Assembly (NCBI GenBank): GCA_031763025.1
Contig: JASSKH010000035.1
Location: forward strand, 4,252,320 to 4,316,319
Direction: 5' to 3'
From: Macrocystis pyrifera
Taxonomy: Eukaryota; Sar; Phaeophyceae; Laminariales; Laminariaceae
Length of the DNA stretch: 64,000 nucleotides
In this document: in pieces, positions 2,748 to 63,506 of the stretch
How the letters are laid out: each line of letters begins with the position of its first letter
How positions within the stretch are numbered: the stretch's first letter is position 1
Notes under the pieces: model-generated
What the model saw: the letters and a program-made list of their open reading frames with translations, nothing else
Told to the model about the DNA's origin: nothing
The model's database searches: none
Made by a program: the position numbers and the translations under genes

Positions 2748-5009
2748 CAGCATAATATATCATCAACATACCTAAGTTACCAGTATATCATCATGCTGCT
2801 TGAACGTGTCGTTCGAGTATATACAGCAGTTCCTCACACGAACACACCAGTAGTACACTACCAGTACAGCACTATTAATAGTACAGCAGTATGAATAGTG
2901 TACTGCTTGTAGTGCACTCCGGACAACATCTCCTACCCTAAACGAGTATTCATACCTTGGTACAACAGCAGTCCTACTTATTAATAGCAGTCCGAGTCAG
3001 GGCTGGCTGCTTGGTTTGGCCCATGTTGAGGAAATCGTACCTTTTTTCTTTTTTCGACGCTTTGATTTTTTCATTTTTTCGCTCTGGACAAGTATTCGTA
3101 TTACAGTACGACGTAGTACTGTATTAGTATTAACAGTACGTTACGAAGAGGGAAGGCGTTGCCGGTACAGAATCGTGTACTTGTACCACGTACGTACCAG
3201 GTCTGAGGTCCACGAGAACGAACACAGCAACTTTTTTTTCCCGCAAGGTATTCTTCCACTCCAGAGTTGGTTCTTGGAGTCTGACCTGCGGCCACGGACT
3301 GCATGGTTTTGTTTGTTTTGTGGCGATAAGTTAATTAACGTGAGAACAACAACAACGAACAACACCAACACCAAGTATATGGCAGTATGGCGAAGTGCAA
3401 GCAGTATTAATATCAATATTAACAGCAGTATGATACGACGATTTTTATATGAGCTGATGCATACCAATGTATCATTTATTATCGTACAATAGCCGCTGAG
3501 CAATCGCAAGCGCGTCGATTACTTAGGCAACTATTAATATTATACACTGGTAAATCGTAGGGTATACCTTGGAAACACCTGGCTTGCATGATGGTCTTTC
3601 CATGGGACTACTGGTATGTACGTACATGTTAATAAACACAACCAGGAGACGTGATCATTGGTGGCGATACGAGATGCTCGTCGCTTAGAGCTTGCGAAGG
3701 ACTTCGGAAGTTGACTGCTGTAGGGGCGAAACGTCATGGACGGTTTGCTCGCATCGACGACACACTGATAATGAATCACACTGGTAAGGTTGATATGGTA
3801 CTTTGATACAATTTTATACTATTTTGCACTTGTATCGCTATTAAAAATAGACATAGCGCACTGAACAAGCTTCGCCGAGTATTATTAACATTCGGTATTA
3901 CCGGGTACGTACGAGCACGAGGCGCCTGGTCGCGTGTAAATGTGTAGAGCAGCAGCAGCAGTATCATACGATGTACCGGTGCTACTGCTGCTGTAACTGA
4001 TGTACAGCAGTTGGCACAGCAGCAGTGTTAAATTTACTACGCTCGTATTAACAGCAGTTCAGAGACGTCAGGACGGGTCGCAGGTTGCTCTGTCTTACGG
4101 CAACCGATCGATATCGATGATACTCAGACACCATAAATGCTCATATGTCAACCTTCATAGCGTACCAGGTAAGCTGTACGGGTGCGACAGGACATCATCT
4201 GAGTGCTGAGCTCAAATCCCTCGTGACCTCTGTGCCTCTGCGAGCTCTGTGTGACTGCTGTCAAGGTTTTGCCGGGAAATTGATACATTGATCGAAAGCG
4301 TCGTCGAAAGGATAGACAGCACGCACTATTTAATAATAATGCAAGCAGAAGACGCAATTCGACACAGAACATCATTACGTCGTAGTATTCGTTACGGCAA
4401 TACCAGGTACGTTTAATCGGATGTAGCTATAGCCGACAACCTCCCGTAGCCTTAGGGTCTGATCCTGACATGGCACCTGCCCTATGTGGTGCAGAGGCCG
4501 TGATATAGTAATCGATGCTCGTAGGTCCTCGCCGTACTACAGCGCAAGCGCGTGTCCTGCTGCTCAAATGATCGAGGTACCCATCGCCATTGCGTGTTCG
4601 GACATGTCTCGTCCGAGAGAAGAGGTTACAACTACGAATTAATACAAGGTTTATCATTGGGGCTGGGGCATGCAAAATTCGTGCCGGTTCAATGCCCGAA
4701 ATCAGGCAAGGGTAAAAAGCACCGCATGACCTCTGGGCTCACCTTTTGCCACAGCTGGGCTTTAGCGAAGACTCCCTCTCAGCTGGGTTCTCATCCCACG
4801 CGAACTGGCGAGTAGAACCGCAGCAGCGGTATTGGACTCAGACGCAAGTACGAACAAGGAACAACGAAGTGTGGCGAACGCGGAGAAAGGAGTTCCAAGC
4901 GTTTTTTTTAAACCTCAACAATCAGGGGATTGTTGGAGATTCGCTTCGAAAAAAAAACAACACGGCGGTGCCATATCAGCACACAAGGCTATTGCAGTTG
5001 TGGTTGGAG
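2748..5009. other. Non-coding stretch rich in micro-motifs
   Basis: No gene recognised. It is dense in TATTAATA (2873, 2979, 3405, 3532), TACAGCAGTA (2882) and TACCAGGTA (4163, 4401). A copy of repeat R2 lies at 3240-3370. Confidence 0.5.
3240..3370 (+). repeat. Dispersed repeat family R2, copy 1
   Basis: It shares with 18125-18245 a conserved block starting GTATTCTTCCACTC and AGAGTT, then a GCGACCACGGA-like block, TGTGGCGAT and AGTTAATGTGAGAA. Both copies end in an (AAC)n run. A shorter match lies at 26243-26290. The simple-repeat 3' tail is reminiscent of a SINE, but I see no clear pol III boxes. Confidence 0.55.
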
Positions 5010-5084
5010 ATGACCTCGGTCTTGTCGGTGGACGACGTGGAGGCGCAAATATCGGCGGATGAGGCGTTGGCGCGAAGACTCCAG
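5010..5084 (+). CDS. Possible first coding exon of the RING-H2 ligase gene
   Basis: An ATG at 5010 opens 25 codons ending DEALARRLQ just before a good donor (CAG, then GTCAGC at 5085). DEALARRLQ is a short helical motif often seen near the N terminus of ubiquitin-pathway and RING proteins. The stretch is GC-rich against AT-rich surroundings. It ends in phase 0. It lies on the same strand 1.8 kb upstream of the first firm exon of the RING gene, but I could not make a continuous phase-consistent path through the next candidate exon. It may therefore belong to that gene through an unseen exon, or be a separate or false exon. An acceptor at 4996-4997 would allow it to be an internal exon instead. 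Confidence 0.35.
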
Positions 5085-5310
5085 GTCAGCTTGGGATTCG
5101 CGATACGTCGTTAGCGCGCCGCCGATTGGGCATCCTAAATATGGAATACACAATACTGGGTGAATCGTACTGCCGTACTGGCTGAATACTGAATATATCA
5201 ACTCTAAAACCACGTTGTTTTTTTCGTGTTGCTTCATAGCTTGACATTGATTGATGTCGCAGTCGGAGCGATGACCTGCTCGGTGCGAGGAAACCGCTTT
5301 GTTTGTCCAG

Positions 5311-5493
5311 TTTTCGACTCACGTTGCGGGTGGCAGTGGGAATGCCTGCCGAGCGTAGAGAGCTGGTGCTTTTCGTCCCCGACTTCAGAAAGGGCGCGGG
5401 GCCGATGCTTGTGTGCCAGGGGGGGGTATTTTACGTGAATGCAGCGTTCGGGGCGAACCTGCTCTGCAGACCATCGGCCATACAAACGAGCAG
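5311..5493 (+). CDS. Possible second exon upstream of the RING-H2 ligase
   Basis: A GC-rich block is open from an acceptor at 5309-5310 (preceded by a T-rich tract) to a donor at 5494 (CAG, then GTACAG). It encodes a stretch containing LVLFVPDFRKGAGPMLVCQG. The VP-x-GxGxML-x(3)-GG pattern is loosely like the VPPGVxPGxxFxxxxGG modules that precede RING domains in some protists. This similarity is weak and by eye. The exon ends in phase 2. The reading frame and GC content argue that it is real; gene membership is inferred from strand and position only. Confidence 0.35.
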
Positions 5494-6856
5494 GTACAGA
5501 CCTTTTTTTGCATTTTACCTTGAGAATACGACAATAAATTCTACTTGTAGGTACGTTGTGGGCACTACAGCACTATGATACAGCCAGCTTACTGCTCAGT
5601 GCTTCGTATATACAGCAGCAGCTACGTACACTGGACGTGAAGGAGTGTGGCTTCCTGCGTTCCCTGTTCATGGTATACATCGTACAAGGTATACCCTAGC
5701 GCTGTTGATACATACCAGGTACCTGGTACGGTACATACACATCCCTCTCCCTGTTCATCGCCCATCGCGTCTGTGTACTGCATTGTTTTCTCTGGTACGA
5801 ACACGAGCAAAATCAATAAACGACGGCAACTACACAACAATAACAGCGACTGCAACATCCCACACATGACGGAAATATAAGAAACGTTTAGTATCAGCAC
5901 GAAGACACAACGGTCGTTATATTTCCGTCCAAACCGGTAACATTTTCTCGGCGTGATGAGCATGTATGCGTGCGTACTGCTGCCGCTGTACTGCTGCTGC
6001 TGCTGCTGTACTGCTGCTGCTGCTGGTGCACCTCTGGTGGTCCACGCGGCAGCATTATTATTAGATTATTAGTAGCATTTTCGGTGGCGTGGTAGAAGTA
6101 TTAGTATTATTAATAATATTAGTCTACGGCTGCTGCTGTCTCGTGCTCCCTGTGCTAATAATAATAAGCTGATGGTGTACCACTGCTGTATATATACCTT
6201 GGTTGATACCCGTTATACGCCCATCATATTCAATACCTCTGACCTGGTAGCAAGCACGTGCATCTACATCTGAGAAGTACCCACACTTTATCCTTAATAG
6301 TGATACTCCTAGTACTTGATCTATCCTACGAGTATACATGTGATGTATGCTACCATAACTACTAATAACGCGTACTGGTACTTGACTGCTTGATAGCACT
6401 GAACAGCACATGCTGTTGTTGTTGTTGTTGTTCATTGTGTTGTTCTTACATTACATTAACTCTCAAATCAAGGACTCCGTGGTCACAAATATCCACATCT
6501 GCATCTCAGGAGTGAGTACCCACACTTCATCCTACAGCAGTAGTACTGCTTAATATTTATAGTCTTTTTACACCAGTTTTTTCTTCCCCCCAACAATTCC
6601 CCGTAAGTCTCGGGAATCATAGGTTGGTGGGACTGCGCTGGTATATACTGCAGCAGTGATGGGTGCAAACCCGAAAGTGTAGCGGCAGTATTAGTGAGTA
6701 AGATTTTCAAAACAATATATCTGGTATACCACACACAGGTACCTGGTACCTGGTATCTCGTTTGCAGGAAGCTTATACCAGGTATGTTATTGCAAACTGC
6801 CACGAACGTTATTACTCAAAAGTCCGTTGTTGTTATTGTTGCTGCTGCTGTGTACG
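5494..6856. other. Non-coding stretch with CTG/CAG runs and micro-motifs
   Basis: No gene recognised. It contains (CTG)n stretches at 5970-6030, many TACCAGGTA and TACCTGGTA motifs (5713, 5720, 6740, 6747, 6776), TATTAATA at 6108 and TACAGCAGTA at 6533. Some of the motifs abut and share their TA. Confidence 0.5.
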
Positions 6857-7366
6857 ATGCGCGTGCCGCTTGGTGTATTTGGTGTGCTGTGTGCATTGGC
6901 AAAGGACGAGCAACAGCGGGTGGACTCCTCCACCCCTCTCATCAACAGCCTCATCACCAGCACCAGTGGACCTAGCAGCAGTGCTGGCTCCATGAGCACC
7001 AGCTTAAGCTTGAACGACACCGGTCCCCCCACCCAAAACGGCCGAGGAGGTCGCATCGGCCTAGCCGGACCGGGAACAAGCGGCCTAGTCCAGGCGGCCA
7101 GCGGCAATCTAGAACCCGAGGCCCCGGCAGCGCGGAGAAATGTCCGCTTCAACATCATGGATGATGGAGTGCGAGGGATGAATTTGAGCAGGCTTGGGTT
7201 GTTACTTTTGATGATGGTGAATCTGCCTTTGATCGCGGCGGGGATTGTGGTGCTCACGCTTCACTGGGGAGACAGTGACGTCTGTGACTCGGGGCACAGG
7301 CAGAAGTGGAGGTGGTGGGCGCTGCTGTCGGTAGTGCGGATGGTTCTCAGCACTCCAGTTACTGCG
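6857..7366 (+). CDS. RING-H2 ligase exon: N-terminal region and first two membrane spans
   Basis: This is 170 codons, ending phase 0 at a canonical donor (GCG, then GTGAGT at 7367). The first ~110 residues are polar and low in complexity (Ser, Thr, Gly, Pro). Then come a span near NLSRLGLLLLMMVNLPLIAA and another near WWALLSVVRMVLSTPV. The ATG at 6857 is the first in frame, but AG acceptors at 6903-6904, 6909-6910 and 6915-6916 would also open the frame in phase 0, so this may be an internal exon with the start further upstream. It is strongly GC-rich compared with the flanks. Confidence 0.75.
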
Positions 7367-10300
7367 GTGAGTGGAGTCCTATATATGAATATGAGCATTG
7401 ATACCTCGTACCTCGTACGGTATATACATGCTGCCCTAAGACGCAAGCGGCAAGCAGCGGCAATCAGTGCAAGGTGTGCTGAAGGATCTCTGATGTAGGC
7501 TGTAGGGCATGTTTCGACTGTGTGTGTGTTTGATCAATAAAATACAGCGGTATGAAATACAGCAGTATCGCATCGAACGTGCTTTGCCCATGTACGTGAA
7601 GATGGGCATGGGATACGTTGTAGCATTTTCGCAAAAGCGAAAACCGGACAGGAGGCAGTATTCTTGAAAACGAAAAACCGATTCAACCGGTTTTTGTTTG
7701 GCAGATATTGAAGCCTCCAAAACACTGGAAACCACAGTGTATTTTAGATTTTTGCTCGATTTACACCTACCTTGCTGTGTACTCAAGCAGGGAAGTATAC
7801 AAAAGAATTTTTTTCGGTCGCTGTTCATGTTATCGCTAGGGAAAAAATATCCATAAAATTCCACCAGAGGGGATACACGTGCGTTGCCCCCCCAGGGGAT
7901 ACACGTGTGCTGCCCCTGTTACCGGAGGGGGTGTTTTTACGGGGATGGACATCTGTTGCCCCCCCCCTGGGCCTATGCCTATGGTGAAATCGTCCATACG
8001 TAAATCGGACATACCAAAATCAAGCGTACACCAAAGTTGGTGAATAAAAAGTGTACCAGGTAACATATTATGTGCATATTATCCAGTGAAACCAATGTTA
8101 TTCGGTTGCGTTTGTCAAAAGATTTGTAGGCGTTTTCTTACCGAGGACGTTTCGCTACCTTCCATGTGTTACCGCAAAATAAACCCGGTTACCCACCGCC
8201 CACTTCAGTAACCTGCGTGGTACCGTAAGCGGTAACGTACGTCCCTGCTCCCAAGTCCGGACCGTATCACTCGGGTGACAAGCGAACACACCCACTGGGA
8301 CTATTCTCGGAACCGAGTAATTTCTTCAAACCATGCCTTAAGGGGGATGCCACCGAACGAAAATGGTCACGGTAGAAATATCTCGACGAGACTTTTAGAC
8401 GTAGACTGTTGTGTCGCTCGGCGTCTACACGTGCCCCACTGTCGAGAAATTAGGCTTGAAGTTTGTTATTTTACCACACCATGTGATACGGTCTAATTCT
8501 GGTGCTCATGGTTTCCTCGTTGGCCCGACTTTCACGCTGTCATGACCAGGTTATGCTGACGTTGTTCATTGCTGCAGACTCGTTTTTGTGTAGATGTAAG
8601 TGCACGGGATCAAACGAAAACGAACTGGAATTTAAACCGGTCTTGTATGTTGAAAACAGACTAATTGCAAACGCCCATCGGGTTTCCGGAAAACCGTGGT
8701 TAACCGGTTTTTATTTTGCCCGGTGCCTATGTCTAGTTTTGCCCTCCATCCTCTGGCATCCATTTTTTTTCAATTAGATACCTGGTGCTCCACGAAAGCT
8801 TGGATGTTTTAATATCCGATTACCTTTATTATCAATATATATATATATATTTCCGTTCGTCAGTTTATACCGTCTTATCCAGCTCGAGTATCGTTCGAAA
8901 TTACACACTGCTTGGGTTGGTCTTTGCGCGCAGAGCAGAGAGCGGTTTTGAAACCAAGTACGGTACGAGATAGTTTGTCTGGTCGGTCTGGTTGCTTGGC
9001 GTTGCGGAGAGATGGTTGATGATTGGGCGTCTGGTGGTTCGGTGGCGGTTGTGTTTGTGATGTCATCGCGTGACAAAAGGAGTGCCTCTACGATCGATCG
9101 CAGTTTGCAGACGTCTCTTTACCCATGAGGACCGTGCATCATTCAATAATTTCGTATTTTAATAGCACGAGCCGCACAAGGGCATCAAGCATAATTTCAT
9201 CGTGTCCACGAGGTAATGTGGGCTTTGCACGATGGAAAAGCTTGGGCCAATCAGATCAAAACGGGTTTTAACTATTTGCAACTTGACCATTGTATAGCCT
9301 TGAGATGGGAGATTGGAGATGCACCTTGCCCAGCTCGCAGTGCCGGTGGTTGAGGTGCGAGCAGAGCACTCAATGACTGATGAAGCAAAGTGAGCGCTAC
9401 GAAGGTTAGGGGGATGGAAGACTATCCACTATTAATACCTGGTATTTCAAAGAGATGGTGTACAAAACTGTCGCTACGTACGTAGGAACTCTATTAATGG
9501 ATTCACAGCAGCAGGATATTTTGTAACCGTCGTCAACTTGAGTGCGTTGGTGGATGAGTTCTGTGTTCTGTGTGAAAAAGCCAAAAGAACGGTATACCTA
9601 CTCTGTCGCGATCGGAAGTTGAATGGAAGTCCATTGGAAATGTACATTGATTTTCGAAGCGCCTCTGAACAAAAAAGGCTCCGGGTAAAATAAAAACTCG
9701 CATAGTATTTTTTTTCAGGGTTATGGCTACGTATGCAGCGTCAGCGCTGCTTAAACAATAGAATGGCTTAAACAGTACAATCGTACTTTGCTCAACGGAG
9801 GGACATTGATTGACGATTTCTCGTAAGATGCTGTGAGAGTATGAAGTATGACATGACAGAATGGTGACGATAGCTCTTTGTGGAAGGAAGGAAGGAGTTA
9901 GGCTGCACTGCAGCAGTAATTAATGTGGTACGTAGTCCTCGCATGTACGACACGACGAGTACTAACTGCTGTACCAGCAGCAGAAGTACATATTATACTG
10001 AGGTAGGAAGTTAGGTATTACAAGACGTGTCGCTCACAAGGAGTAACACAAAATGCGAGTGAAGTGGACAGAGAGGCCCACGGTTGTAGTAAGTAGATGC
10101 AATGACGACTTGAGCACTGGCCTATATGCTTGATGAAGATTTACATACAGAACACGCGCGTTCGGCTTGATATAACACTTGTCAAATAAAGTAAAAATTG
10201 AATATAGACGAGACGTATTGCGCGGCTTGCAAAGTTGAGTATCAACTACTTGATCAGTCGAACTCACAGCTGACGTATTTCTTATTTATATGAAAAGGCC

Positions 10301-11360
10301 AAGAGCTCCTATCAGTACAAGTACGTACGAAAACAGTTTTTTTTTGTTGGGCCCGAGAGATTTCGATGTCTTGGTTCGTGTGGAGAACACAGCGAGCTGT
10401 GTAAATGTTCGACGGCATGGTATCAATAGCTCTCTTGAACTCTGCCTACTGGCTTGCGTCGTCGCGCTCTGGTCGGCACGCGCTTGCTTTGCTGCTTTGT
10501 GCAGGGCTGGTGGGCTGGTGGGCTGTGCTGTGACGTGCTTGCGGTAGATTCTCTACGACAACATGCTCATTCTTATGTATTTATACAAACAAAAAATGAG
10601 ACGAAAAAAAAAAGTGAAAACGAATGGTCTCCTTCTAAAACAGAACGAAAAAGCGAATAGGCTCGCCAGCAGGTAATAGAAGGATGATATTCAAATCGGG
10701 ATTAAATAACTCGAGGACCGATCCTAAAAAAAAATAAGTTTGCTGTCGGCAATTATGGGTTGAAAGTGGCTGAGAAGTGGGAGAGCATACCGGGGGCGTC
10801 CTTAGGCAAGATCTCAGTAAATGTTTACAAGGCGCTTCGCATAGCGGGCGGTTGTGCTCTCTACGCTCGCTCACGGGGAGAACTGAACGGAACAAATGGT
10901 ACTTCATTTTAGGTGCTAACAGGGGCAACTTGCAAATGCTAAGAGCTCCATGTTCCACCCAGGAAAGTAGCCCGGGCGCCGCATGCACCTTCATACTTAC
11001 GAAAGAGAAGGCACAGCACGGCACAGCACGGCACAGCGCGGCACAGCACCGCAAAATTATGAAGATCAAAGGAAGACGAGTTTTTGAGTATACAAACAAT
11101 TCCCGTCCCCTTTGATCTAAGTATTTCCCGCCTGATCGGAACACCTTGCGCCGGAAACAGAAAAAAAAACTGAACAGCTGAGCTTTTGTCAGCCTTGTAC
11201 GCTGCCCGTCCCTCTCGCAACCACGTCGCCACCGATTCAGTTCTGGTAAAGCTTTCGTCCCTCTCTGTCACAGTGAACCTCGTCGCTCACCTCGCGTGAA
11301 GCCCGGTGCTCACCGTGGCCCTCGTTCGCTAGCCTGACGATGTTGATGCTCACACTGCGG

Positions 11361-11404
<44 letters not shown>

Positions 11405-14400
11405 TTCAGCCTGTTCGCAAAAATTAGCACCGCTTGAATATTTTTTGCACACCAACAAGACCCTTATAGACTCATGTTTTTTTTTTTTCCATCTTAGCAT
11501 CAGGACGCCTGACAGAGCCCATTCGTTCATGCTTCCCTGGTGTCTCGATGCACACGCGACGCCTAAAATGGCCACGAAAACGGCAGCCGCGCTCCTTCCA
11601 CCCCCCCTCTACCGGCCAGCTCCCGCTGACACTGGCGATGGCGCCGTGCTCGCCCGCGTTGCCGTGCTCTGGGCACACGCACGTATGATACACAAAAAAA
11701 AGGCTCTCGCCGGCAAGCAAGAGGCGGTATTGGGGTGGGAGGTTTGAGATGCCAGAGATGTACCAACTGTGCACGCTCAGGAAAAATATAATATGTATCA
11801 GGTATACGTATGTTTGTAGCGTAAGCGAGTGAGTCACGACGTCAGTACAAGTAGTCAGGCATGCATTGCCGCCTCCAAGGGTGAAACGTTGCCGGTATTG
11901 CGCCAAATCGGCCAACACGCCATTCCCGGTACCGAAAAACATGCAAAGCGTTATAAATAAAGACAGGAGATGGATCCTTGCGATCCCCTCTAGAGACATA
12001 GCTCAACGAGTAGCGGCGTCAGACATTTAATGGACTACCGCCGCTGCTCAAAAGCGACAGCAGTGTAATCTGCGTTGTACGAGCCCGGTGTGTTACAGAC
12101 TGCTTGCGTGTACCACGTATCCACCGGAAAAAAAAAAAAACGGCGGAGGGGTTTTCCTACATATGTTGAGGCGTTTTTTACCAGGGGCTGTTAGCCGGTA
12201 GCTACCGGTAGTGGGAGCTCATCTACCAGGAATGTTTACTGTGTTGTATATGAACACCAACGGAAATGCTTATACATACTGCTTACCAGGTATAGTAATA
12301 AACTCAGCCCGAACAGTACCGGTATAAGCACGAAGCTCTCTTTACGGTATTACTATTACGGGGGTCCATAGTTAATAGGACCTATGGTATACATAAAAAC
12401 CTATATATTTGCCTATTTTTACTAACAATATTTGGTCCTATTTACTATGGTCCCCCGTAATAGTAACCTTGGCTACTATTGAAAGTGGAAGTCTAAAATA
12501 ATACGGGGCAGTTGACGCCAGCTATCTTCCAATCAAATCGCTGAAATAACGCGAACGACGAGAGCCATCTTCCAACCAAATCGCTGCATTAACACGAACC
12601 ACGCGAAATCACGCCGCACACAAACGAGAAGAATCTCACACACCCGCAGTCACGCGACCATCGACCTTCGATCTCGACATGCAATCAACCCACGGTCAAC
12701 GAGCTTCGTACCGGGCAAGGCCAATGAGTGTAACTGATGGGCTTGAAGGTATTATCCGAATCCGTGGACTAGGGGGCGAGAGGTTGGCCGCGGTGTCCTA
12801 CGCTCTTCGTCCAAACATTTAAAGAAAAACTGTTTTGTGCCAACGGAGAGGAATCGAGAGTTTTTGTCGTCTGTTTTCTACACACCAGCTGCCATATATG
12901 TTACAGCTGTACGTCACATATCACCGACCGAGGTGTGAGCACTGTAACACGAGCGTGGGTCGGAGCCCCTAACCAGCGCGCTTCGTTCAGAGTTCGTGAC
13001 GCAGTCGTTTGGTTTGTCCGTCGATGTCCAACCTGAAAAATGGTCTATTTCTTGGCATCGGAGAGAGGGGTCCACAGAGATTCTTGTCGTCTGTCTTCTA
13101 CAGACCAGCGCCAAAATGTGTTTTTTATCAGGCGCCTGGTGGGCCCACGCCACAGATCACCGACCGATATGTGAGCGCTGTGACACTACGGTGGATCGGA
13201 GGCCCTCACCGGCGCGTTTCGTTCAGATTTCATGACGGCGTCGTTGGTTTTGTCGAGGATTATCATAAAAATTGGCTCTAGTCAATGGGAATCACTATAC
13301 ATTGCTCCAGACCCTGCCAGAACAGGAGTTTTATATACATTGCGCGGCGCGCAATTAAAGCCCTCGAAAACTTCCTCGCGACGTTTAAAATTTGCCGTTG
13401 AAAGTCTACTGCCGTAACTGCGACGTGCTTGTTTTACCCGAAATGTGATGCTGCAGGTGCTGCTTGTATATATGATTCGTACCTGGTGCATATGCCCGTT
13501 GTTCCCTGGTACGTATCACGGCGTGGTTTCGATAACCGTCACTAGTCTGTCGGTGTTGTGCTTTTGGCTCGGTCTGCTGTAAGTACTGCTGCTTGCTGTT
13601 GTTGACGGAAGCGGTATGTAGTGCGCCCTTTGGGTGACGCGCCCGGTACTACTGTTTACTACTGTTTACAGGTAAAATTTTGATAATAGTTCGAGCAGTC
13701 TCACTACGAGGACCGGTAGTGCATCAGCAGCACAGCAGCATGATAAAGGAAGCGTGCAATTTGATACCGTTCGAGGATGCTGCTAATATCATTGCCTGGC
13801 GCATGAAGGTGAAGGAGATTGAATTAACACGCAACAGCAGGGTACCAGGTATCTGTATTCGGCCGTGTAAGGTAGACCACAGCTATGATACTGCTGTTGT
13901 AGGACTTGTAGGGACCGGATATACTCTAAATTCTCAGGTTATGGACTCTCCCCGGGGTTTCCATCGTTCCATTTTCAAGCCTATAGCCCCAACCTTGACC
14001 CCAACCCCAGCCCCGACCCATGGGCGTATAATATCACAGCAGTAGAGTCCGAGCGCCAGGGAATTTTTCGTAAAAATTCAGCTACAACCTTCAACCTCAA
14101 TCCTCGCAAGAGCAGTATGATGCAGATGTTGGCGGTCATTTCCTAACCAGCTTCCCATGCTCTGCCGTTTAAGCTTTGCTTGCCTATTGCCGTCGTCCTG
14201 TTCTCTCCCGGATGCGAGTTCAACCTCAACCAAACTCGCTCTTTCTCGTACTCGTATTATATGTATCCCCTCCCCAAACATGCCTTCCGGGTATGTCGAA
14301 AAGCAGGCCCGCTCCAAATGCCCCCAACAGAATTCCTTGTACTGGTATGCGTTTAATCTTCCACACTTCTTATTTTTAGCGGATTGAAAAATGTCCTGGA

Positions 14401-14587
14401 ACAGCGGTCCTTTAGTTTTTCTGCGGCCGGAGAGTCTGTCCGTCCCTCGACGAAAGATTATGGAGAATCTATCCGCCACCTATCACTGCTGTAATCACGC
14501 CCCTTGTACTATTTTATATATACATTGTATACAGTATTATTAACAATAGTATGTACATTTTTACTGGGGACCATAGTAAATACCGGT

Positions 14588-14622
<35 letters not shown>

Positions 14623-52000: not shown

Positions 52001-55000
52001 ATCGACTTCAAGTCTCGGGCACCGGTATCGAGTTGATATAAAACCTTACCGAAGTGTCGGGTACCGGTATTGTTGAGGCCATGCCGAACATATCTCGATA
52101 CGAGTACGTAGCACGAACTACATGATACATACACTCGCAGCACTATGAAACTTGAGTTATACATGTGTAGCAACATCAAACAGAAGGCGGCGGCAACGAC
52201 AGAGAAAACAGCAGTGCCGCCGCCGGCATCCCAAGCACGTAAGCACGTAGCAAGCGACAGAACAATCGGCAGAAACACCAGCTATAATAGCAGCACCGCC
52301 AAGAACAACAACGACAGAAAACGAAGGCAGAGAGGCAGAAGTAACAGCTCGAACTTGGACAATGTGCCGCTTCTGTGGGCTGCACTGCACACTCCACGCG
52401 TGCCACCGCCACCGAGTGCTGCGCTCGAAGCCCGTTCTATACCCCAACTTCGAAGCTCGGCATACAGCAGTCTGGCTCATCGGCGACCTCGCGTTGCTGT
52501 TGCTACTGCTGTTGCTGTTGCTACTGCTGTTGCTACTGCTGCTGCTGCTGCCGGTACAGCAGTGTTGGAATATAATAGAGCAGCGATGGATGCGAGATGC
52601 CGCGCTCGAGTCGTTTCACCGTTACAAGGATGACGTCATAATGTGTGTCTGTAGTACGCCACTGAATACGCGTATCGAGGCCGTAATGAACAAGGTACTC
52701 GCGGCATTGTGGTCGAGGGTATACCGGTACCCGGGGTACACGTGGATGGGCGTACCGGACTCACCAATGTGTCTGATACCGATATTGAAAAAATATCGAA
52801 CTTACGGAAGGATCGAGTACCGGTATGGAAAAAGTGCCGAACTTGCCGAAGTGTCGAGTACCGTTGTTTGAAATACCTAACCTACCGAAGTGCCGGGTAC
52901 CGCTATTTACAGAGCAATTGTCCCTGGTTTACTTTGGTCCGCATCCTACCGAGCATCCCTTTGCTTTCTTGAGTTGTTGTCTTGAGTCGTTGTCTTGAGT
53001 CGTTGTCTTGAGCCGTTGTCTTGAGTCGTTGTACTGACGTTACTGTAGTGCAGAACGCTTCATCTTCACATACGAAACCCAGCCTGAACTGCTCGTTTTA
53101 GCTTCCTTATTTGTTACCAGTATTAAGTAATCCTGTACTACTGTCTGCACGAGGAGCAAAACAGACACCGTCAGACAGACGCGGACAGAGAACCAAACAT
53201 GTTTTACGGTTTATGCTGACCGGGTACGTTTCATAGAATAATGGTACCATTATTGCTAAATTATTCAATTTTGTTATGTAATAATGTACGAATACGTCAG
53301 CTGTGAGTACGATCGATTGAACGTTCGAAAGTCAACTTTGCAAGCTGCGTGATACGTGATGGTGATCGTCATCGTCAGACACGCTCATCGGGAGTGCTCG
53401 TCGTGTAAAGTATTTCATTTGTATTACGGTGTTTGTGAATTAGACCTATGATACACCGTAGCAATTGATTGATAGTCAGTAGTTCCGTCACTTGAAGGTG
53501 AGTTGTTCGCGCGTACTTTTGTATTCAATCCTCATTGAGAACATAGTTATTTTATTTTTCACGGGCCGCGGAATTTCTACTCCCCAAAACGCGAAAAAAC
53601 TGCGGTAGGTTCTATTATCTTCTGGCACAATGTTTCATGAGATTGCAACGCTCGTCCATCCGATCGAATCTTTAAAACCAGTACCGCGCACGGAGGGCAC
53701 GCGCTTGTCCGTGCCGCTGGGAGTGCCCCGACTCCCAGAGGGACGACCGTCGCGAGCGTAGCTATCATCAAGTTCTGGCGCGACGAGGCCGTTCACTACA
53801 AAAAAAATGTCGGTGAGTCGGCTCTGTCGGCTGGGCAAATAGAGCTCTCGTGATGCACGGCGCTTTCTGCGACCAACCAGGGCCTCGGAATGACCCTGGG
53901 GTTGACCCTAGTCTATCGTCAAGGCTCACACCGTGCGCCTGCCCCGACCTCTGCGATGATGCGATGTTTTTCTGCGATCCTTTACATCTTTTTGTTTTTG
54001 TTTTGTTTTGCCGAAGAGGATAACTTTCCGCGAAGCTCGAAAACACATGCTGTGATGTGTGAGTTTTCCGCGAAACCATAAGAAAAAGTCTGCGGGGTAA
54101 TACCTGGCACGGGTAGTTGATAACGACCCTTGAATGTTCTGCCTTCGGAAAATAGTTGTCACCCAGCCACTCGAACGAGTCCCGTGCTATTAATAGCATG
54201 CATTGGGGGCGTTTATAACAGGTCACAGGTCACGCTGGTGTGTATGTGAGGATGACGGGCTCTCGCTTCTTGATGACCAGGTAAGACATAGCCCAGTTTA
54301 TTTCGATGAGGCTAACGTTCAGTCAGTATTGAAACACGTTGACTAAAATATCATACCGTGTGTGTGTTCTTCACATGATTACCGTTCTTTCTACCCGTCG
54401 ACATCCAGCACAACCATTGTCCTCTGTGGTCACAACACTACGACACAGAGCTACGACATTGTATTTGTATTGTAGCAACAGGAGAGTACGGTAGACACCA
54501 TAATGCAATGTCATCGTACTCAATACGAAAAACACATTTTACACGTGCCAGCAATCCCGATACATGAGAAACATAAACGATAGACGAACATACAGAAATC
54601 ATCTGAGAAAATAAAACTAAACGGAGTGTCGCCCCGCCCGGGAGAGGATGCTGAAATGCGACAGACATACGATTCCAAACAGGAAGCGAAACGAAGCATG
54701 ACCAGAAAGCACTACCAGGAGCAGGTGCGCCACCAACCAAGGCAAATATTAAAGAACTGCCTTCGTAAGCCTGCCAAAGAATTGGGCCAATCATAGTTGG
54801 TTCGAACCAATGAGAAAGACCCGCCTCGGACCTCTTGAACGGCTGAGATGATACCGAACTCAAGGTTTTTGGCAGCCTATACACTCGAGGTCAGAACGGT
54901 CAGCACCGTAAGCGCACGAGGGAGAGCGCGCGGCGGCGTGGCAACGTACCGAGACCGTAGGCTGTATACGTGCGAGCGAAGCAATCGGCGTGATCGGACG

Positions 55001-58000
55001 CCCTGAGCCTTCTATTGAGCCCGCCGAATAAATGGACAGATTAGTTGGTTCCCAGTAGAACGAGAAAGTCCGGGTTGGGCCTGCTGGAACCAGAATTGCT
55101 GATACATGAACCACCACAACCACCATTGGTAATCTCTACGATTACGCACCCACCTCGACCCGGCGAGCAGGAGAAGATATAGAGTTTACGGCGCGGTGTG
55201 CATGCAGCGAATGTAGGGACACTCTCTAGGTGCCGTCCAAGACTGGCTTGCGCCACGTGCCGAGCCGTCCGTGTGCCACCTGCACTGTAGGTCTGGGCTC
55301 AAAGATCGCTCGTACAGCAGCACCAGTTACTAGCTTACTTGCATTCTGTTTGGGGTTCTGATTTATGACGAAACTGAGCGTTCGCGCGTTCGCAGTGTGT
55401 GTACCCGAGATCAAAAGCACTTCGTACCCGCGCGTGCACGAGAGGGAGAGTACGCCACGGGGCGGCAACTCTTCGATCCGGGAATCGGTCCCACAAGTAA
55501 GTATGCATGGTTGAAGTGGGGTACCCGACTTGAGAGCTCCCGACTTGAGAGAATACGGAGTTAAGAGCGGTTTTTATGGCTTGGCATGGAAATTGTACGG
55601 ATAAGAATGATTTGGCTTGTTCTAGCCCGTTTGCTGTTACCTCGGGTACATAACGCCTCCGCAATAGTGAGGAGACCCCGATTATAAACAAATGGCGCCA
55701 GCTGCCTGTACCGTGATCTCGACCCACAAAACATGCCAGACAAAGCACCAAACATATTGCCTGTTCTGTTCTTGTCCACACGTTTTTTTCAGACTGTTTA
55801 AAACGCGCGGCGAAGCCGCGCTCGGGTCGAGGGTTAGCCTTAGTCTGGACTAGGGTGAGGGTTAGGGTTGGGCTAACGGGTTGGGCTGGATCGACGCCTT
55901 CTCGTGATTAAAAAAAAAAAAAAAACCAAGAGCACGTAAAACCAGCATAAAATATAATGTTTGGAAATTTATTTGGTACCAGTGGTACCAGTATGACTTG
56001 TGTCGGTAAAGGCGCGGCGATGGCGCGGCAATCGTTCTCACAGCACGACAAAATGCGTTTTTGTTGGTATGTAGGGGGTAGAAAGAGTCGGCGATCCGTA
56101 GCAATGAATGATTCGGGTTAACTTGGACATAGCCGGGCACGTTCGCACGTGTCTTGACTGGCTACAGTAAGATCGGAAACGACTTAACCGCAGTTGAATC
56201 GGTCTGCTTGTGTTTCTACGCTATTCGCGCAGGACAGCCGTACACCACCCTGCGTGCGACACAACATAAATTTCTGACGTCCAGCAGTGCATAACCCTGG
56301 TAAGAGGTACAGCTGTGTTTTGTTTTTTGTTACTCTCGAAATATTCGTGTTGTTTCTGTCTCTTTATTCTATGTGCAATAGGTTTTTTTAGGACTGCTGT
56401 CTCGTTTTCGAGACAAAACCACTCTAAGTCAAACACTTTGCCGCCAAAACGGGACTGCAAGCCTAACCCTAACCCTAATGGGACCAAAACCATGGCGGGT
56501 AGCTTTGGTGTTATCAACCATCTACGAGCTACAGAGCACCGCCCAGCAGTAGTAAGGGTAGGGTCATGTTGCGCGCCCGTGCCGTGCGACTCCATTCAAC
56601 CATTGTAACCGTCGCTGTAACCGTCACTTTTTGAAGGGGTTTAGAAGCGGTGTTGGTATATATTGGGATATTTTTTACTGAGGAGGGTTGTGGTTAGTTC
56701 ATTTTGCAAAAAGAGAGACACTTTTATCGTTCTACGGAGGCAAAAAGAGGAGCCTGAAACCAAGAAAGTAAAAGTATTTATCGAAAATAAAATCTAGCGC
56801 GTAAGAGTCACCCGGAGCCCCCTGGATAGGGACGGCGTTGCTTCCTGTTATTGCGACTGCTTGCTTGCCTACTTATGCTTACTGGTACTTGGTATGATAG
56901 TTTCACGAGTCAGTGGGTCTACACGTGTATGCATATACTTCGAAGTACTACAGAGTATGCCCACAAGCCAACCTGCGGTTGACCAATGTTAGCGGAGGGT
57001 CAGTATGTGACGTTGTGGCGGACGTGCTAGTCCAGAGGCTTGGCGCGAGCCGCTAGTAGGCGGGTTAATGAGCTTCGCTCTGGAGAAATCTATGGTGTTG
57101 GAATGTGGCTCTCTCTGGGCCAAGATGACAAAGAGGAAATAAAAAAAGTCATGCTAAACTGAACTGGACCAAGCTTGGCTCGATACACGCTCTACAAGTA
57201 CAGCAGTACCACGTGCCTTTTAAGACAGGCACCCTACGTGGTCGTTGTTGTGACCGACCTACAGCAATGTTCCTTGATGCTTGCCCGTGGAGCCCGTGGA
57301 GGTTGATAAACCACCTACGGGCACCTACATACCAGGTATACCATATCATACTCCTTGTTTTTGTATTGCTATTGCTCCTACGATCGAGGATGCGAGTCTT
57401 TTTTTTGTGAATGTATTACCGCTGCAGTTTCGCCGCAAGACACCTACTGTTGTCTCACATATGTATATATATATGATACAGGGTACCAATCCCGGTTCAT
57501 TCGTAGTTAGACTTCGCTACAGCGGTAAGCTGTCAGCTGTGCTTTACGCACCAATTATGCGTATACCCATACTTCATCACATAGTATGCGACAACACTCA
57601 CTGTGAGAAACCCCGATTTTGTCAGGTAGGGCGTGTCCTGGTCTAATTTTAGTACATAAATGACCAAGTTATTGTCTTCTCCCAGAACTGGAGCCTGGAA
57701 TGATGAAAGTAGCGAGCCTTCTAAGTTTGACGCCTCTTTTTTTGAGGGACCCGAAGCGAATCGCCCGAGAAAAAGACGTCCCGCCAAAGTAAAATAGGAA
57801 ATAGACCGAACACTAATCAGCGTAAATTACAGCAGCAATAAGACACCGTCGACGGGCCGCGGGAAGGTATAGCGCCAGCCAGTGATGAGGCACAGCAGGA
57901 GAGGAGAGGAGTCGACTACAGAGACAGGCTACAGACGCGAAGTCTGGTGGTGGTGGTGGTGGTGGTTGGTCGGGATGCTGCTGTATGTACCTCTTTTTTC

Positions 58001-58175
58001 AGCAGCAGCCAGCAGCGAAAAAATAAGTACTTATCGGTACGATGACATCGCAGCAGGACCCCAACGACGAGCCGAAGGAAGGTATAGCGCCAGCAAGCGA
58101 CAAGCCGAGGCAGGAAGGGAGAGAGGTCGACTGTGAAAACGAGCTAGACGCCAAGACTGGTGGTGGTAGCGCTGG

Positions 58176-58208
<33 letters not shown>

Positions 58209-61200
58209 TCGCCGTCATCGTACCATTTTTTTCTCTCTTTTACCTTCTGCCACAAACGGCAGTTATTAATATTACGGGGGTCCATAGTTAACAGGACCAA
58301 ATACTGTTAGTCAAAATAGGGAAATATATAGGTTTTTATGTATACCATAGGTCCTATTAACTATGGACCCCCGTAATAGTGATGATGCCGGCACTTTTTC
58401 CCTTTTTTTCGATGTTATCTTATTTTTCACCCGTCTTTGCAGCACATATACTATAGTACTCTGTACTATTAATAGCATATACAGCAGTACCTGGTACCTC
58501 GTATATACGCTAAGGATAACATGATAATAAGCATACCTGGTACTGCTGTACGTCACACATGCCTGGTATCAGGGTACAGCAGTGTCATCAGCCCAATATT
58601 GGAGGCTGTCTTCTATTTATAGGACTTAACATTTTTAGAACTGCAGACCCGTTTTGGGGACAAACCACTCTAATTGTAAGTAGTTTATCCCCAAAACGGG
58701 ACTGTAGTCCTTAAAGGTCCTGCCGTGAGCCAGCCACAGTTACGACGTACCAACTCGGTATTGTTTTGTCCACTACATATAACTGTCCACCATCCACCAG
58801 CGCACACGAGTTGACGACAGTTTCAAACATGCTGCGTCGAGAGTTTCTAGCGACAGTTGTACTATCTTCAACGCCCTTACCTGGTATTGTTGAGTGCGAA
58901 AGTGTTGTAGCGGAGTGCAGTGTTGACTACCGCATGCTAATGCGTACTGTATTCAATAGATGAGCTGCTTGATGCACCTCTCTGTTGTAGATACTTTTTT
59001 GTTCTCGTTTAGCGACTTGTTAGGCTACTGGTTGTTGCTGCTGCTGTTAACCAAAATATCAACATGAACTAGCAACCCGTCGGCCACCGTCCCCTCCCTT
59101 TTTTTTTGCGCCTCGGCAGGTAATCGGATTGAGCAAGCTCGCGCGTATCGCGGATATGTTCTCACGGCGGTTGCAGGTGCAGGAACGACTCACGCGCCAG
59201 ATCGCTGAGGCCATACGGGAGGCGGTCGACCCGCTTGGGGTCGGGGTGGTCATCGAGGCCACGTGAGCGACGCGACACAAGCTTCATCGTCTTTCGCAAG
59301 CCGTTTGAGGAAGCCTAAGCCTTGCAACTGCTACGCCCGCTGTTCATAGTACCGCTTCTCCTTGCTTGTTCGTATCGAAGAGTAGTTTTTTTATATTTCG
59401 GTTGAGTGCTACCGGTATTAATGTGTTGCTTCAGCTGTATCAGGTGTAGGGCTTGGGTGCGTAGCTCAGCCCCGCGGTGGGTTTATGACCGTCCAACAAA
59501 CGTGACTAGTTTATAATTTTATCATCACTACGACGGAGAACTACATGTTTTGTATTACGTCTTACTTGTCTGGTCTGGTCTGTTTTGGTATGCTTTTTTG
59601 TACCCAGTACGCTGGGCACTTGTTTGCCTACCTACCTCTGTTCATGTGAGGTTATTTTCTATTTTGGTTGTCTGCCTCACATCTGTATTCACAGAACTTG
59701 TAACTCTACGAGTAGGATGGCAATGGCATTGAGTGTGCTGCATCTTGTATCTTGTCGCGTAGAGATAGCGGTTTCATGTGAAAACAACACGCGCATCATC
59801 TGCTGCGCGTTCCATCAAACTGGTCCACGCGCAGCTTATCCAGCTGTGTGAAACAGTAGTACATAATGTACAGCAGTGTGATTGCACGCTATGATTTTGA
59901 GGTTATCGCGGCCGAGCGCAGGGTGAACAGTTAACGGCCCTTGTTAAATCTTCCACGTCCTATCCGCAATCTATCCACCCACGCTCCACACAACCGCAGC
60001 TGCCTACGTACCGGTATGTTTTATGAGTAGTGCTGGAGAAAGGTAACACGCGAATATCATGATACCGGGTACTGCTGTACTGGTATACAATGCTACTGTA
60101 GTACCAGGTACCAGGTAAATGTTCGCATGCTAGTAACAGTGAGATAGATCTACGAGTAGATCTATCTCACTGTTAGTTTTTTTTTTCCCCCCTCGAATAG
60201 TCTTAAGGCCAGATTTCGTTTTTGGTTTCTCGAGGCGTGCTATTACGATAGGGGTGCACCTACTGTACCTGGTATTATTTTTCTGAGAATCCTCACTTGA
60301 GAAATTCAAATGTCACTCATAACGCACTTAAGAAGCTCAAATATCACTCACAACGGTTTCAATATATGTGTACGCTTCACCCGCCGAGCACTTCTATGGC
60401 CTATACACGAGGTTTACACCGAAAGAAAATGAAATATTAAGAGAGTCAGTTATGGAGCCATCAGTCAGAATTGTGTTTGCCAAAAAGCAAGGGTACACGA
60501 GAAAAAAAACGACACCCCCTTTTTTTCGTCCCAGACAGCGGGGGGGGGGGGGGGGGGGGGGGTAACTAAAATCAGGTAAAACAAACATGACAAAAAAATG
60601 GTCTGTTTAAACTCTGACAATAATCCCAACCCGCTGCTCGTACTCGTACTTTGTTTTCAATTCCGACACGGTGCCGAGTGTGACTCCGTTCGCTCTTTTT
60701 TTGGCTTGCCCTGGTGTATCATATCATACGCATCGTATGCCCGAAATCGTAGACTTCGTTTTTCGTTCGCGACATCTCTTTGCGCGTTTGCGTGCGAAGG
60801 CAGCATTCGTTCACCAGTCTACACCTTACACCTCGAGCGAGACGAGCAGCTGCTCATTGTGGGGTTCTCAGCTTTTGGCACGTTCGAGGTTGTTTTTTGT
60901 CCATCACCCCCCATCATCCCTGTCTCTCGCATTTTCGTATTTCGTGTTTCGGTATTGGGCACTTCAGCAGCAGCCATAGAGAGGTCCGCGCCTCTTACGG
61001 GTGACAGTTCAGTTGTCAGACTCTGTGCATTCGACATTGTCGTGTGTCAGTCCGATACCGGTGCTTTGTACGAATGTGTCTTTTGCCTTGGGCATTCTCG
61101 AACGACTTGTACTGAGAGGTCCATCCGACATCAAACAGGTCGCTCCTTCTAACCCAGCAGCCCGCATTACTAGAATGGGGCTGGTGTCACAGGGATTGCC

Positions 61201-61720
61201 CTGGACTACTGTAGGTAATCGACCGATCTGTTACCAAGATAGCTCAGTAGGTAACACCTCCACATTTTGCGCCGTCGGCACGACTTGAACCTGCGCCTGA
61301 AATCACACACTAGCTTTCTTGGTTGAGGGGAGATTACAATTAGAATTACCCTGGGCTGGGTAATCAGGATGACATTTTGGCCCTGTAGCTACACTTTCAC
61401 ACTGATGCTGTACGTTGTCTTCATAATTTTCGTCCTTTTCCCCCACTGAAGTCCGAAAAAAAGTACTATTAATGTGAGTGTTCATTCAAAACTTGTCACG
61501 CCATTGTTTCACCTCCGTTTCCCTGCCGCTTACCAGCTCTTCCCCTCTCCTTTGCTGCTCGATTTTTTTCAACTTGTGTCTGATCAGGCATATGTGCATG
61601 ATCATGCGAGGCGTGCAGAAACAGGGGGCGATTACCATGACGAGCAGCGTTAACGGTTGCTTCCAGGCGGACTCTAGGACGAGGGCAGAATTTTTCAGCT
61701 TGATCGGCCTCAACCGTTAG
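48642..61720 (+). CDS. GCH1: GTP cyclohydrolase I, complete in three exons
   Basis: The enzyme converts GTP to 7,8-dihydroneopterin triphosphate, the first step of folate and tetrahydrobiopterin synthesis; the family works as a homodecamer in the cytosol. Exons 48642-49085, 59120-59262 and 61588-61720 join to a 239-residue protein in phases 0 and 2. Signatures include [12 protein letters not shown], the zinc motif CEHH (Cys128, His131), [43 protein letters not shown] (third zinc ligand Cys199) and MRGVQK. The 71-residue spacing between the zinc cysteines equals that of the human enzyme (Cys141, Cys212). The N-terminal ~50 residues are variable, with no obvious targeting signal. The introns are 10,034 and 2,325 bp, both filled with repeats. 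All key residues are present, so the gene should be functional. Confidence 0.96.
49326..49429. mobile_element. TTACGGGGG MITE copy L
   Basis: Starts TAACGGGGGACCATAG (one change in the terminus) and ends GGTCCCCCGTAA. Left flank TA, right flank TC. It is the first element inside GCH1 intron 1. Confidence 0.92.
49750..50770. repeat. Dispersed repeats R3a and R3b, copy 2
   Basis: Collinear with 10140-10272 and 10820-11690, but the gap between the two parts is shorter. The R3a part ends with GCTGACGTATTTC and is followed by an inverted GAAATACGTCAGC at 49914-49926, which may mark element ends. R3b blocks run from the GCTTCGCGTCGCGGGCGG palindrome to the CACGAAAACGGC block. Confidence 0.6.
51440..52090 (+). 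repeat. Degenerate ~40-bp tandem repeats, block 1
   Basis: Repeated units combine ACCGAACTTACCGAAGTGTC with a GGTACCGGTAT core, in a loose head-to-tail array. A longer insert with GTATTTTGGGGTGGGCGTAC occurs two or three times. The block continues at 52680-52915 after about 590 bp of unrelated sequence. Confidence 0.7.
52680..52915 (+). repeat. Degenerate ~40-bp tandem repeats, block 2
   Basis: Same unit as 51440-52090 (CCGAACTT, CCGAAGTGTCG, GTACCG). The separation suggests an insertion into a once continuous array. The intervening 52090-52680 holds CTG/CAG-rich low-complexity DNA. Confidence 0.65.
52970..53036 (+). repeat. 13-bp minisatellite
   Basis: About five head-to-tail copies of TTGAGTCGTTGTC with single-base variants. 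Confidence 0.85.
57863..58210 (+). repeat. Tandem duplication of about 215 bp with TGG runs
   Basis: GAAGGTATAGCGCCAGC starts both copies (57864 and 58078). Both continue through a CGACTG/CGACTACAG block to (TGG)n runs at about 57946-57965 and 58158-58200. Non-coding, in GCH1 intron 1. Confidence 0.75.
58272..58376. mobile_element. TTACGGGGG MITE copy M, inserted at a TATTAATA motif
   Basis: Starts TTACGGGGGTCCATAG and ends GGACCCCCGTAA, with TA on both flanks. The left TA is the last two bases of TATTAATA (58264-58271), so the copy appears to have landed in an existing micro-motif. Confidence 0.93.
59120..59262 (+). CDS. GCH1: GCH1 exon 2
   Basis: 143 bp from [10 protein letters not shown] through the [11 protein letters not shown] motif to VVIEA plus the first two bases of the Thr codon (phase 2). 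Donor GTGAGC at 59263. The match to GTP cyclohydrolase I is contiguous with exon 1 despite the 10-kb gap. Confidence 0.96.
60134..60175. repeat. Perfect 19-bp hairpin
   Basis: TAACAGTGAGATAGATCTA at 60134-60152 is perfectly inverted at 60157-60175 with a 4-nt loop (CGAG). It is followed by a T run. Located in GCH1 intron 2. Confidence 0.85.
60540..60562 (+). repeat. Run of 23 G
   Basis: An uninterrupted poly-G tract in GCH1 intron 2. It could form a G-quadruplex and is an assembly or slippage hot spot. The 184-codon open frame that follows (60598-61152) has no recognisable domain. Confidence 0.9.
61195..61400 (+). mobile_element. SINE-like repeat, family 2, two partial copies
   Basis: Blocks TAGCTCAGTAGGTAACACCT (61242-61261) and GACTTGAACC, then a second start CCCTGGGCTGGGTAA at 61350. 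They match 39594-39720. They lie just upstream of GCH1 exon 3. Confidence 0.55.
61588..61720 (+). CDS. GCH1: GCH1 exon 3
   Basis: Acceptor CTGATCAG at 61580-61587. The first base completes the Thr codon, then [11 protein letters not shown] supplies the third zinc ligand. It ends FFSLIGLNR with TAG at 61718-61720, the usual C terminus for the family. Confidence 0.96.
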
Positions 61721-63394
61721 ACGCCCATCAATATGAACAGGGAGCGTTTTGACCTGTCGATGCTCTTCCTGCCGTTGACCGAATTTTTTTGCGGGACCTC
61801 AACCGTTGAAAGTTAAATACCCACCACATGCATAGGGGCCTTTTTTTTGGCATCTCGTCGCTTTTATAGCCGTTGAGTCTCGCTTCGGGAATAGAAATTA
61901 ATGAGTTTGCAGATTGGGATTGCACGCATATGGGGCTTCAAACTTATTCGGGGTCTCAAACGAAAACGAGGTGTGGCGACTACAGCGTAGGCCTCACGCA
62001 GTAGTCTATTAGCAGCTTATTCATAGGCCGCTGGGGTACAATAGGAGTAATAAACTGCAAGGACGCATGCTATATACGATAGATGTACTACTGCTGTGGC
62101 ACTTTTCGCCGGAAGCATTTTTGACTGAAGGAGCTTCTCAACAATGGAACTACCGATATCTCGAGGATATCCCATTTGTGTGGCACAGCATTATGGTTGT
62201 ACACCCGGCCCACGGGATTTTCGCCCCTGGGTTAACCCTACATATTTTTTCATTGCCAGTTTTGGGTGAGATATGAGGCTCCAGGTGTGGAAGCTGAGAA
62301 CGAAAAAAATCCACCCGTACCGCAGCACGCGTGAAACACAAGCGTTCAGCACAAGCGTCTAGCACAAGACACCCGCGCAGATTGATCATACTTGCACTGC
62401 TGCACGTTCGATAGTTCCCACGGGAACCCTGTTTTGTCGCTTTTTTGTTTGGGAGGTTGGGATACGTGCGTTCCGGGAGGGGCAAGACCCGACAGGCCGC
62501 TGGGTGTGTGTCGGCTATCGGTTTCAGCTGTTCACTGTTGGTAGCAGCGGCGGTCAGTATGCACGTGAATCGTTAAGGGCGAGTTTGAGTGACTGGAACA
62601 AACGAGAGTTACGCATGAAGCGAGATCGAGGGGGGTCAGATAGAAATAGAAGCGCAGACAACTATAATAATTACTGAAACAGAGACCCCAGCTGACGCCG
62701 GAAATTTTCGATACGTTCAAAGCAGCACCGGTACATCTTTTATTCCATTATCAAACCGAAGTATAGATTCAGGTACGCCAGTCGATGGCGCCATCACGCT
62801 GCTGTGCCGTACACTTGCGCTATTTGTACGCACAACAAGCGAAAACATACCGTGAAACGTACCTCTGTGGCTATAGTAGTTGCTGCATCCGAAAAACATT
62901 CCGTGAGAGTGCCCGTGATGGGCGGACAACTACTCTGGTTTCAAAGTGAAGCTCGACCGGACGGTTACCCTGGTTTAGACTGAAATTCGATCTGGCAAAT
63001 ATCCTTGTCTTGAGGAGAAAAAAGCGATCGGACACGAAAACTTTCCCCCCACAGTGGTGAACTACTGGGGAAGTACTCCCGTAATTCCACACACACGATA
63101 CAAAATATTTCTTCGGCGCCTCCGTTCCGTAACAGCGATGAACGATGTGTTTGTGAGAAGTCAGCGCACAACGTCTGCACGAACACCTTTGACGTCTCGT
63201 ATTATTCCTAAGAGTTTACTCTTAGGTTTTCCGTCGCCACTAAATTAACACCGCTAAATAATTCTGAAGACGGGGATTCTTGAGGCCCGGGATCTGTCGC
63301 GTACCTGGTACATACATACTGGGACTGGTACGATTTTGTCACCAGCCAGTCCCTACTCACAAATGCCCGGTGCCACAGAGTGCGAGCAATCCTG
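61721..63394. other. Intergenic stretch downstream of GCH1
   Basis: A short block around the stop codon (CCTCAACCGTT) is repeated about 90 bp downstream in the presumed 3' UTR. I see no gene, mobile element or RNA in the remaining 1.5 kb. Confidence 0.5.
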
Positions 63395-63506
63395 TTACGG
63401 GGGACCATAGTAAATAGGACCAAATATTGTCAGTAAAAATGGGTAAATATATAGGTTTTGGTCTGTACCGTAGGCCCTATTTACTACCAGGTATGCTCCC
63501 CCGTAA
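63395..63506. mobile_element. TTACGGGGG MITE copy N, carrying an inserted CCAGGTA
   Basis: Starts TTACGGGGGACCATAG and ends CTCCCCCGTAA, then TA. In the right arm the consensus TTTACTATGG reads TTTACTACCAGGTATG. That is an added CCAGG plus a duplicated TA, making TACCAGGTA at 63485-63493. The insertion is at the same TA where copy E carries CTGTA. Confidence 0.92.

Follow-up and report, generated by a model that had tools for sequence, protein, structure and literature searches.

The 64,000-bp stretch of the Macrocystis pyrifera genome analyzed here (contig JASSKH010000035.1, positions 4,252,320 to 4,316,319; hereafter the window) is scattered with short words in which a core of a few nucleotides stands between two TA dinucleotides, and it carries a family of miniature inverted-repeat transposable elements (MITEs), copies of which contain some of these words as insertions. 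The word TATTAATA, with the core TTAA, occurs 23 times (first and last base 598..63549), the CCAGG word occurs 15 times as TACCAGGTA and 12 times as TACCTGGTA (27 in all, 4163..63754), and the CAGCAG word is present in six copies as TACAGCAGTA and in four as its reverse complement TACTGCTGTA (10 in all). The corresponding means from 20 order-3 Markov simulations were 1.9, 1.3 and 0.6, which bears out the excess over background that a preliminary description of this DNA had claimed when it proposed that the words are transposon excision scars. The positions it gave for the words were right for 19 of 19 TATTAATA and 15 of 15 TACCAGGTA/TACCTGGTA, and all of the words it listed are present.

The excess of the CCAGG word persists when repeats are set aside. 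Removal of MITEs, the retroelement region and tandem arrays left 51,950 bases, in which the CCAGG word occurs 26 times against 1.79 expected from an order-4 model (Poisson 1.6e-21) and heads the list of words of the form D-core-rc(D) that occur at least five times, where D was any of the 16 dinucleotides, rc(D) its reverse complement and the core 2 to 7 nt long. Throughout the window CCAGG is flanked by the pair TA..TA 27 times, and by the next most frequent pair four times. The masked counts of the other classes, against order-4 expectations, were 22 versus 6.1 for TATTAATA (Poisson 5.5e-7, with an expectation from a model that in part learns an 8-mer), 9 versus 1.12 for the CAGCAG word (Poisson 2.8e-6) and 10 versus 2.0 for a CTCG/CGAG core. 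The CAG/CTG cores were mildly enriched, 22 versus 13.9, and the dominant core is 5 nt long, so the words are not simply the known CAG/CTG footprint. When the four top cores were excluded, TA-flanked palindromic cores of 3 to 7 nt were still in excess, for example 28 versus 10.8 at 4 nt and 24 versus 10.8 at 5 nt. CAGCAG and CCGG are weak classes. CAGCAG carries both TA flanks 10 times where 6.2 would be predicted from its single flanks, and since it gains so little from them the class may be plain CAG microsatellite; it is kept here as unproven. CCGG does not appear in the list of 30 words obtained after masking and was dropped as a scar class. The word TACCGGTA occurs 13 times, and six of these fall within or close to tandem arrays at 51.6-52.8 kb.

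The evidence on how the words arose comes from the MITE family, a multicopy short element of 111 bp with terminal inverted repeats (ends CTATTACGGGGG...CCCCCGTAATAG). It is represented in the window by 12 near-full copies and a truncated one, and in a second sequence, contig L013 (described below), by four copies, 17 in total. Among the 12 near-full window copies, five have TA on both sides, three have TA and CA and four have other flanks, which indicates a TA target-site duplication. Because the copies derive from one sequence, later changes in each of them become visible. The 17 copies contain nine insertion gaps that are 3 nt or longer, and six of them fit the addition of a core plus TA at a TA: CCTGGTA at 63485 and again at L013 2762, CTGTA, CGTA and TTA within the copy at 20265-20398, and CTATGGT at 15572. 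A net gain of a core and one TA at a pre-existing TA, the product of a Tc1/mariner-type footprint, is seen at 63485, L013 2762, 20372 and 20328. A random inserted k-mer would have this appearance in about 4% of cases. The MITE copy at L013 2824, with CCAGGTA and four further bases, is near-clean and fits in part. Outside the MITE, a pair of repeat copies differs by a 7-base gap, TG-CCAGG-TA against TA, at 20903 (Table), where the scar appears to have decayed. Judged from these alignments of repeat copies, the CCAGG word is demonstrably an insertion of the core plus TA at a pre-existing TA, as the preliminary description had anticipated, and two of its empty counterparts (those of 63485 and L013 2762) are clean. 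The CTG, CG and CGAG cores are each represented by one clear case, that of CGAG being an interrupted palindrome at 60151, the single case found in a search for such palindromes. A joined-flank test scored the empty form above the filled one at 63485, 20372 and 20328 (Table). The test, in which 394 of 3,514 TA-N(1-12)-TA sites had an empty-type match, says little in MITE copies and other repeats or at their edges, where most of the matches listed lie.

Table. Candidate scars, shared-TA words and MITE copies in the window; bits are match scores of the empty and the filled form of a site.
Feature	Position	Strand	Details
Best-kept MITE copy with both flanking TAs	12351..12465	+	110/111 identical to consensus
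MITE copy with three extra TA-type insertions	20265..20398	+	
MITE copy holding a CCAGG candidate scar	63390..63512	-	
MITE copy, right end running into TATTAATA at 58264	58264..58383	-	
TACCAGGTA candidate scar in MITE copy; plain TA in other copies	63485..63493		empty 67.8 vs filled 52.5 bits, 10 empty-type matches
TACTGTA, CTGTA inserted at TA of MITE copy	20372..20378		empty 64.7 vs filled 54.0 bits
TACGTA, CGTA inserted at TA of MITE copy 20265-20398	20328..20333		empty 76.9 vs filled 66.2 bits
TGCCAGGTA, decayed candidate scar in non-MITE repeat	20903..20911		partner 31484-31612 has TA
Palindrome with 18-bp arms	60134..60175		perfect once CGAGTA is omitted at TACGAGTA (60151-60158)
Two CCAGG words sharing a TA (TACCAGGTACCTGGTA)	5713..5728		
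Two CCTGG words sharing a TA	6740..6755		
Two CCAGG words sharing a TA	60102..60117		
TATTAATACCTGGTA, two classes sharing a TA	9430..9444		

The second sequence was the one contig returned by a MITE pattern search of the GTDB collection, JALZWD010000061.1 (L013; 12,215 bp), from the metagenome-assembled genome (MAG) of Flavimaricola sp. isolate g3_MAG_00016. L013 looks chimeric, with algal sequence and MITEs at about 1-3646 and bacterial genes at 3647-12215, among them apparent ATP-synthase subunits as read by eye. Its algal part and the window have the MITE in common, at up to 86% identity, so that insertions into one MITE family are seen in two unrelated sequences. The contig also serves as an internal control: words of the CCAGG, TTAA, CAGCAG and CGAG classes number nine in the 3,646-bp algal part, which has 221 TAs, and zero in the 8,569-bp bacterial part, which has 199. 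Two of the nine (1419 and 1685) lie in a local duplication and hence are not independent. Per kb, the algal part carries 2.5 such words and the window 1.1. Across the MAG as a whole TACCAGGTA is found five times, three of these in L013, and the backwards-read pattern eight times; the word is thus not common in the bacterium. Further algal sequence was sought in viral contigs, where three DNA patterns gave no match and one protein query gave four pattern matches and no relative, and in genomes related to the MAG at family (394), genus (3) and phylum (398) level, each set including the MAG, where just the MAG and one 21-base match were recovered, the latter looking like chance. A second palindromic repeat family, starting with TTAA (TTAACCCTTTTAGAACCGCAG...), is present at 58626-58717 and 30886-31003 in the window and at L013 2954-3045, with 80% identity over 92 bases between the window and L013, and is possibly a TTAA-inserting MITE.

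The words are unevenly distributed and lie close to one another. CCAGG words are dense at 4-8 kb (seven) and at 56-64 kb (ten), and none falls in 40-48 kb, the position of the retroelement. There are 25 pairs of motifs no more than 40 bp apart, whereas placing the motifs at random on TAs, 2000 times over, gave 10.3 such pairs on average and never more than 21; this test took in six classes with repeats unmasked. Ten of the 27 CCAGG words share a TA with another motif, six of them as three CCAGG pairs and four with other classes; the abutting motifs that the preliminary description had picked out at 60261 and 9430 are both there. The base outward of the CCAGG words is C or T on 46 of 54 sides, against a background of 0.617 (p 1.5e-4), which gives an extended form R-TACCAGGTA-Y. 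Outward of TATTAATA the first base is G in 54%, the second C or T in 87% and the third A in 54%. The neighboring bases thus differ between core classes, as expected if different cores come from different families.

We consider it likely, at roughly four chances in five, that the excess of TA-core-TA words, above all TACCAGGTA, represents repaired donor sites of TA-inserting cut-and-paste DNA transposons. An element would insert at a TA, which becomes duplicated, and its transposase would later excise it with staggered cuts a few bases inside the element ends. The end bases would remain on the flanks, and end joining would close the gap to leave TA-core-TA in place of TA. On this account a whole element arrived and left between the two states, and the cut in the donor of the CCAGG words would lie about 5 nt inside its ends. 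Two CCAGG overhangs would match at four of five positions when paired with each other, and one product could dominate for that reason. The preliminary description had read CCAGG and CCTGG as the two outcomes of mismatch repair; they are one double-stranded word read on its two strands, and therefore no evidence for repair in both directions. Its statement that the cores are palindromic except for a central A/T does not hold for TTAA and CCGG, which are true palindromes. A 6-nt CAGCAG overhang with two independently repaired mismatches was also rejected, because it predicts TACAGCTGTA and TACTGCAGTA together to be as common as TACAGCAGTA and the counts are 1, 0 and 10.

A resident donor can be proposed for TATTAATA. 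The MITE ends CTATTA and TAATAG (CTATTACGG...), joined over a shared TA, give CTATTAATAG, which occurs seven times against 0.28 expected, and the outward context of TATTAATA points to the longer scar TA-CTATTAATAG-TA. On the G-flanked sides of TATTAATA, TA, CA or TG comes next in 15 of 25 against a background of 24%, and 12 words differ from TACTATTAATAGTA by at most two mismatches where simulations gave 0.9, a set to which simple TA/TTA repeats contribute some. One exact TACTATTAATAGTA lies in L013. Each of the other products that repair of the MITE ends could give is rare, at 0 to 2 occurrences.

A number of observations weigh against the excision of transposons as the source of the words. 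No intact TA-flanked element with CCAGG ends, the donor expected from the preliminary description, was found in the 64-kb window or in L013, by a search for TA-flanked inverted ends (at least 15 of 20 bases, up to 8 kb) or by one for ends starting with CCAGG, CAGCAG or CTCG (up to 9 kb, in the window and the algal part of L013). The latter gave five matches in the window, of which three are scar clusters matching each other and two, 22718-25641 (CTCG) and 25515-30700 (CCAGG), agree at 9 of 14 bases each and look like chance. No site was observed in all three states of TA, element and scar. Two of the nine gaps in the MITE copies depart from the core-plus-TA pattern, one at L013 418-545 and the other where the truncated copy at 14943 has a ragged edge; among the six that follow it, CTATGGT at 15572 is a tandem duplication and TTA at 20303 may be slippage, which leaves four fitting insertions, and in so TA-rich a MITE tandem duplication or slippage gives a TA-type result in 50-85% of cases. 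CCAGG lies beside a different scar class at chance level (4 versus 3.8). Palindromic cores flanked by AT are in excess too (24 versus 10.4 and 18 versus 11.0), so that the general excess is only partly TA-specific. For TATTAATA and CAGCAG there is no clean empty site among the matches listed, exact TACTATTAATAGTA is absent from the window, and the G predicted if TATTAATA is a MITE scar is lacking on 21 of its 46 sides. Because of those 21 sides and the missing empty site, we lean only slightly toward TATTAATA being part of a scar CTATTAATAG left by the window's own MITE. The earlier attribution of the words to TA insertion and excision largely stands for CCAGG, through its empty sites, gains little for CAGCAG and CCGG, and for TATTAATA amounts to a plausible resident donor; the accompanying claim of at least three or four transposon families is not established, with CAGCAG and CCGG weak and the enriched CTCG/CGAG core not listed there.

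Words that are uniform, palindromic or nearly so and clustered at 4-8 and 56-64 kb might instead be functional motifs, for example palindromic protein-binding sites, maintained by selection. However, several of them arose in MITE copies by exact insertion of core plus TA, at different places, single-base variants of the word are seen at most of its positions and the flanks vary with the core, all of which makes selection a very unlikely source. Slippage, tandem duplication or microsatellite growth in TA-rich or CAG-rich DNA could also produce such words. CAG repeats are common in the window, CAGCAG has TA flanks about as often as expected, and tandem duplications within the MITE often look TA-type, that at 15572 being one; but the CCAGG, CTG and CG gained by MITE copies do not duplicate the sequence next to them. 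Such processes are likely to have made some of the CAGCAG and TCA words, and it is very unlikely that they account for the words as a whole.

The same net product, together with the failure to see a CCAGG-ended element in the window or L013, would follow if the words were direct micro-insertions of a transposon tip by aborted transposition, the full element never having been present. We know of no process that makes transposon-tip micro-insertions in number. Excision footprints, on the other hand, are an established source of just this product in the systems described in PMC1925063 and PMC9632168, and we give the aborted-transposition alternative very little credence.

Excision of TA-inserting transposons is known from other systems. 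Footprints of Tc1/mariner and Stowaway elements share with the candidate scars a TA target, a few bases between two TAs, in the published cases those of the element ends, and the repeated use of one site (PMC1925063, PMC9632168, PMC7913693). Their reported lengths are 2-4 bp for Tc1/mariner (PMC7913693, ZB), 1-4 for Ppmar2 (PMC9632168) and, for Triticeae Stowaway elements in beta-amylase intron 4, 2-4 bp from one side plus 1-2 from the other (PMC1925063). The CCAGG core, at 5 nt, exceeds the first two ranges and lies within the third, which reaches about 6 nt between the TAs, and is thus at the long end; CTATTAATAG, at 10 nt, is longer than all of these published footprints. The footprints these papers describe come from single sites or assays and are varied, whereas the 64 kb analyzed here hold 27 copies of one uniform 5-nt core. 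Events of this kind are known; what is unusual is their abundance and uniformity. In Ectocarpus, a member of the same class of organisms, 17 families of Mariner-Tc1 elements and MITEs with almost 12,000 mostly non-autonomous copies are described (PMC12477816). These are likely the same kind of donors, and the words "footprint" and "excision" do not occur in the main text of that paper. None of the titles listed by a literature search that took in few subscription papers reports mass excision scars in brown algae, and we do not claim that they are unpublished.

Excisions are far harder to count than insertions because little is left behind. If the window is typical, its 27 CCAGG words in 64 kb scale to about 260,000 CCAGG scars in a kelp genome as large as the Saccharina latissima assembly (615.5 Mb; PMC12116465), a figure extrapolated from one window. 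Each scar would leave two TAs in RTAC/GTAY context and might in this way favor further insertion, a self-seeding that we offer as an idea only. A broader proposal, which is tentative and which we hold to be somewhat doubtful, is that kelp genomes carry recognizable excision scars, about 100,000 or more, that all derive from one TA-targeting transposon family and have a constant 5-nt core, that these are more numerous than the elements still present and add new TAs in the favored RTAY context, scars seeding scars, and that they form a readable record of excision apart from the record of insertion. Were one footprint so uniform and abundant as to be the most over-represented flanked word of a genome, sequence alone would show how often past excisions happened, which targets were chosen and how the sites were repaired.

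The G+C content of the window is 49.7%, and that given for the Saccharina latissima assembly is 49.84% (PMC12116465). Rfam gave no match at the gathering threshold.

A Ty3-like retroelement region occupies 39805-47263, with 287-bp direct repeats that are 97.9% alike (39805-40091 and 46977-47263) and probably are parts of its long terminal repeats. It includes a 126-bp tandem repeat at 43355-43851, a reverse transcriptase match in the open reading frame (ORF) at 41928 and an integrase match just under the curated cut-off in the ORF at 44760. The ORF at 48642-49175 matches GTP cyclohydrolase I over its first half (PF01227, E 1.1e-31) and is probably an exon running into an intron. Diverged tandem arrays at 51447-51967 and 52777-52863 have a 41-bp unit rich in TACCGGTA-like words, and repeats of the CGGGTCGGGTC type lie at 1904-2126 and 2426-2636, with an inverted copy nearby.

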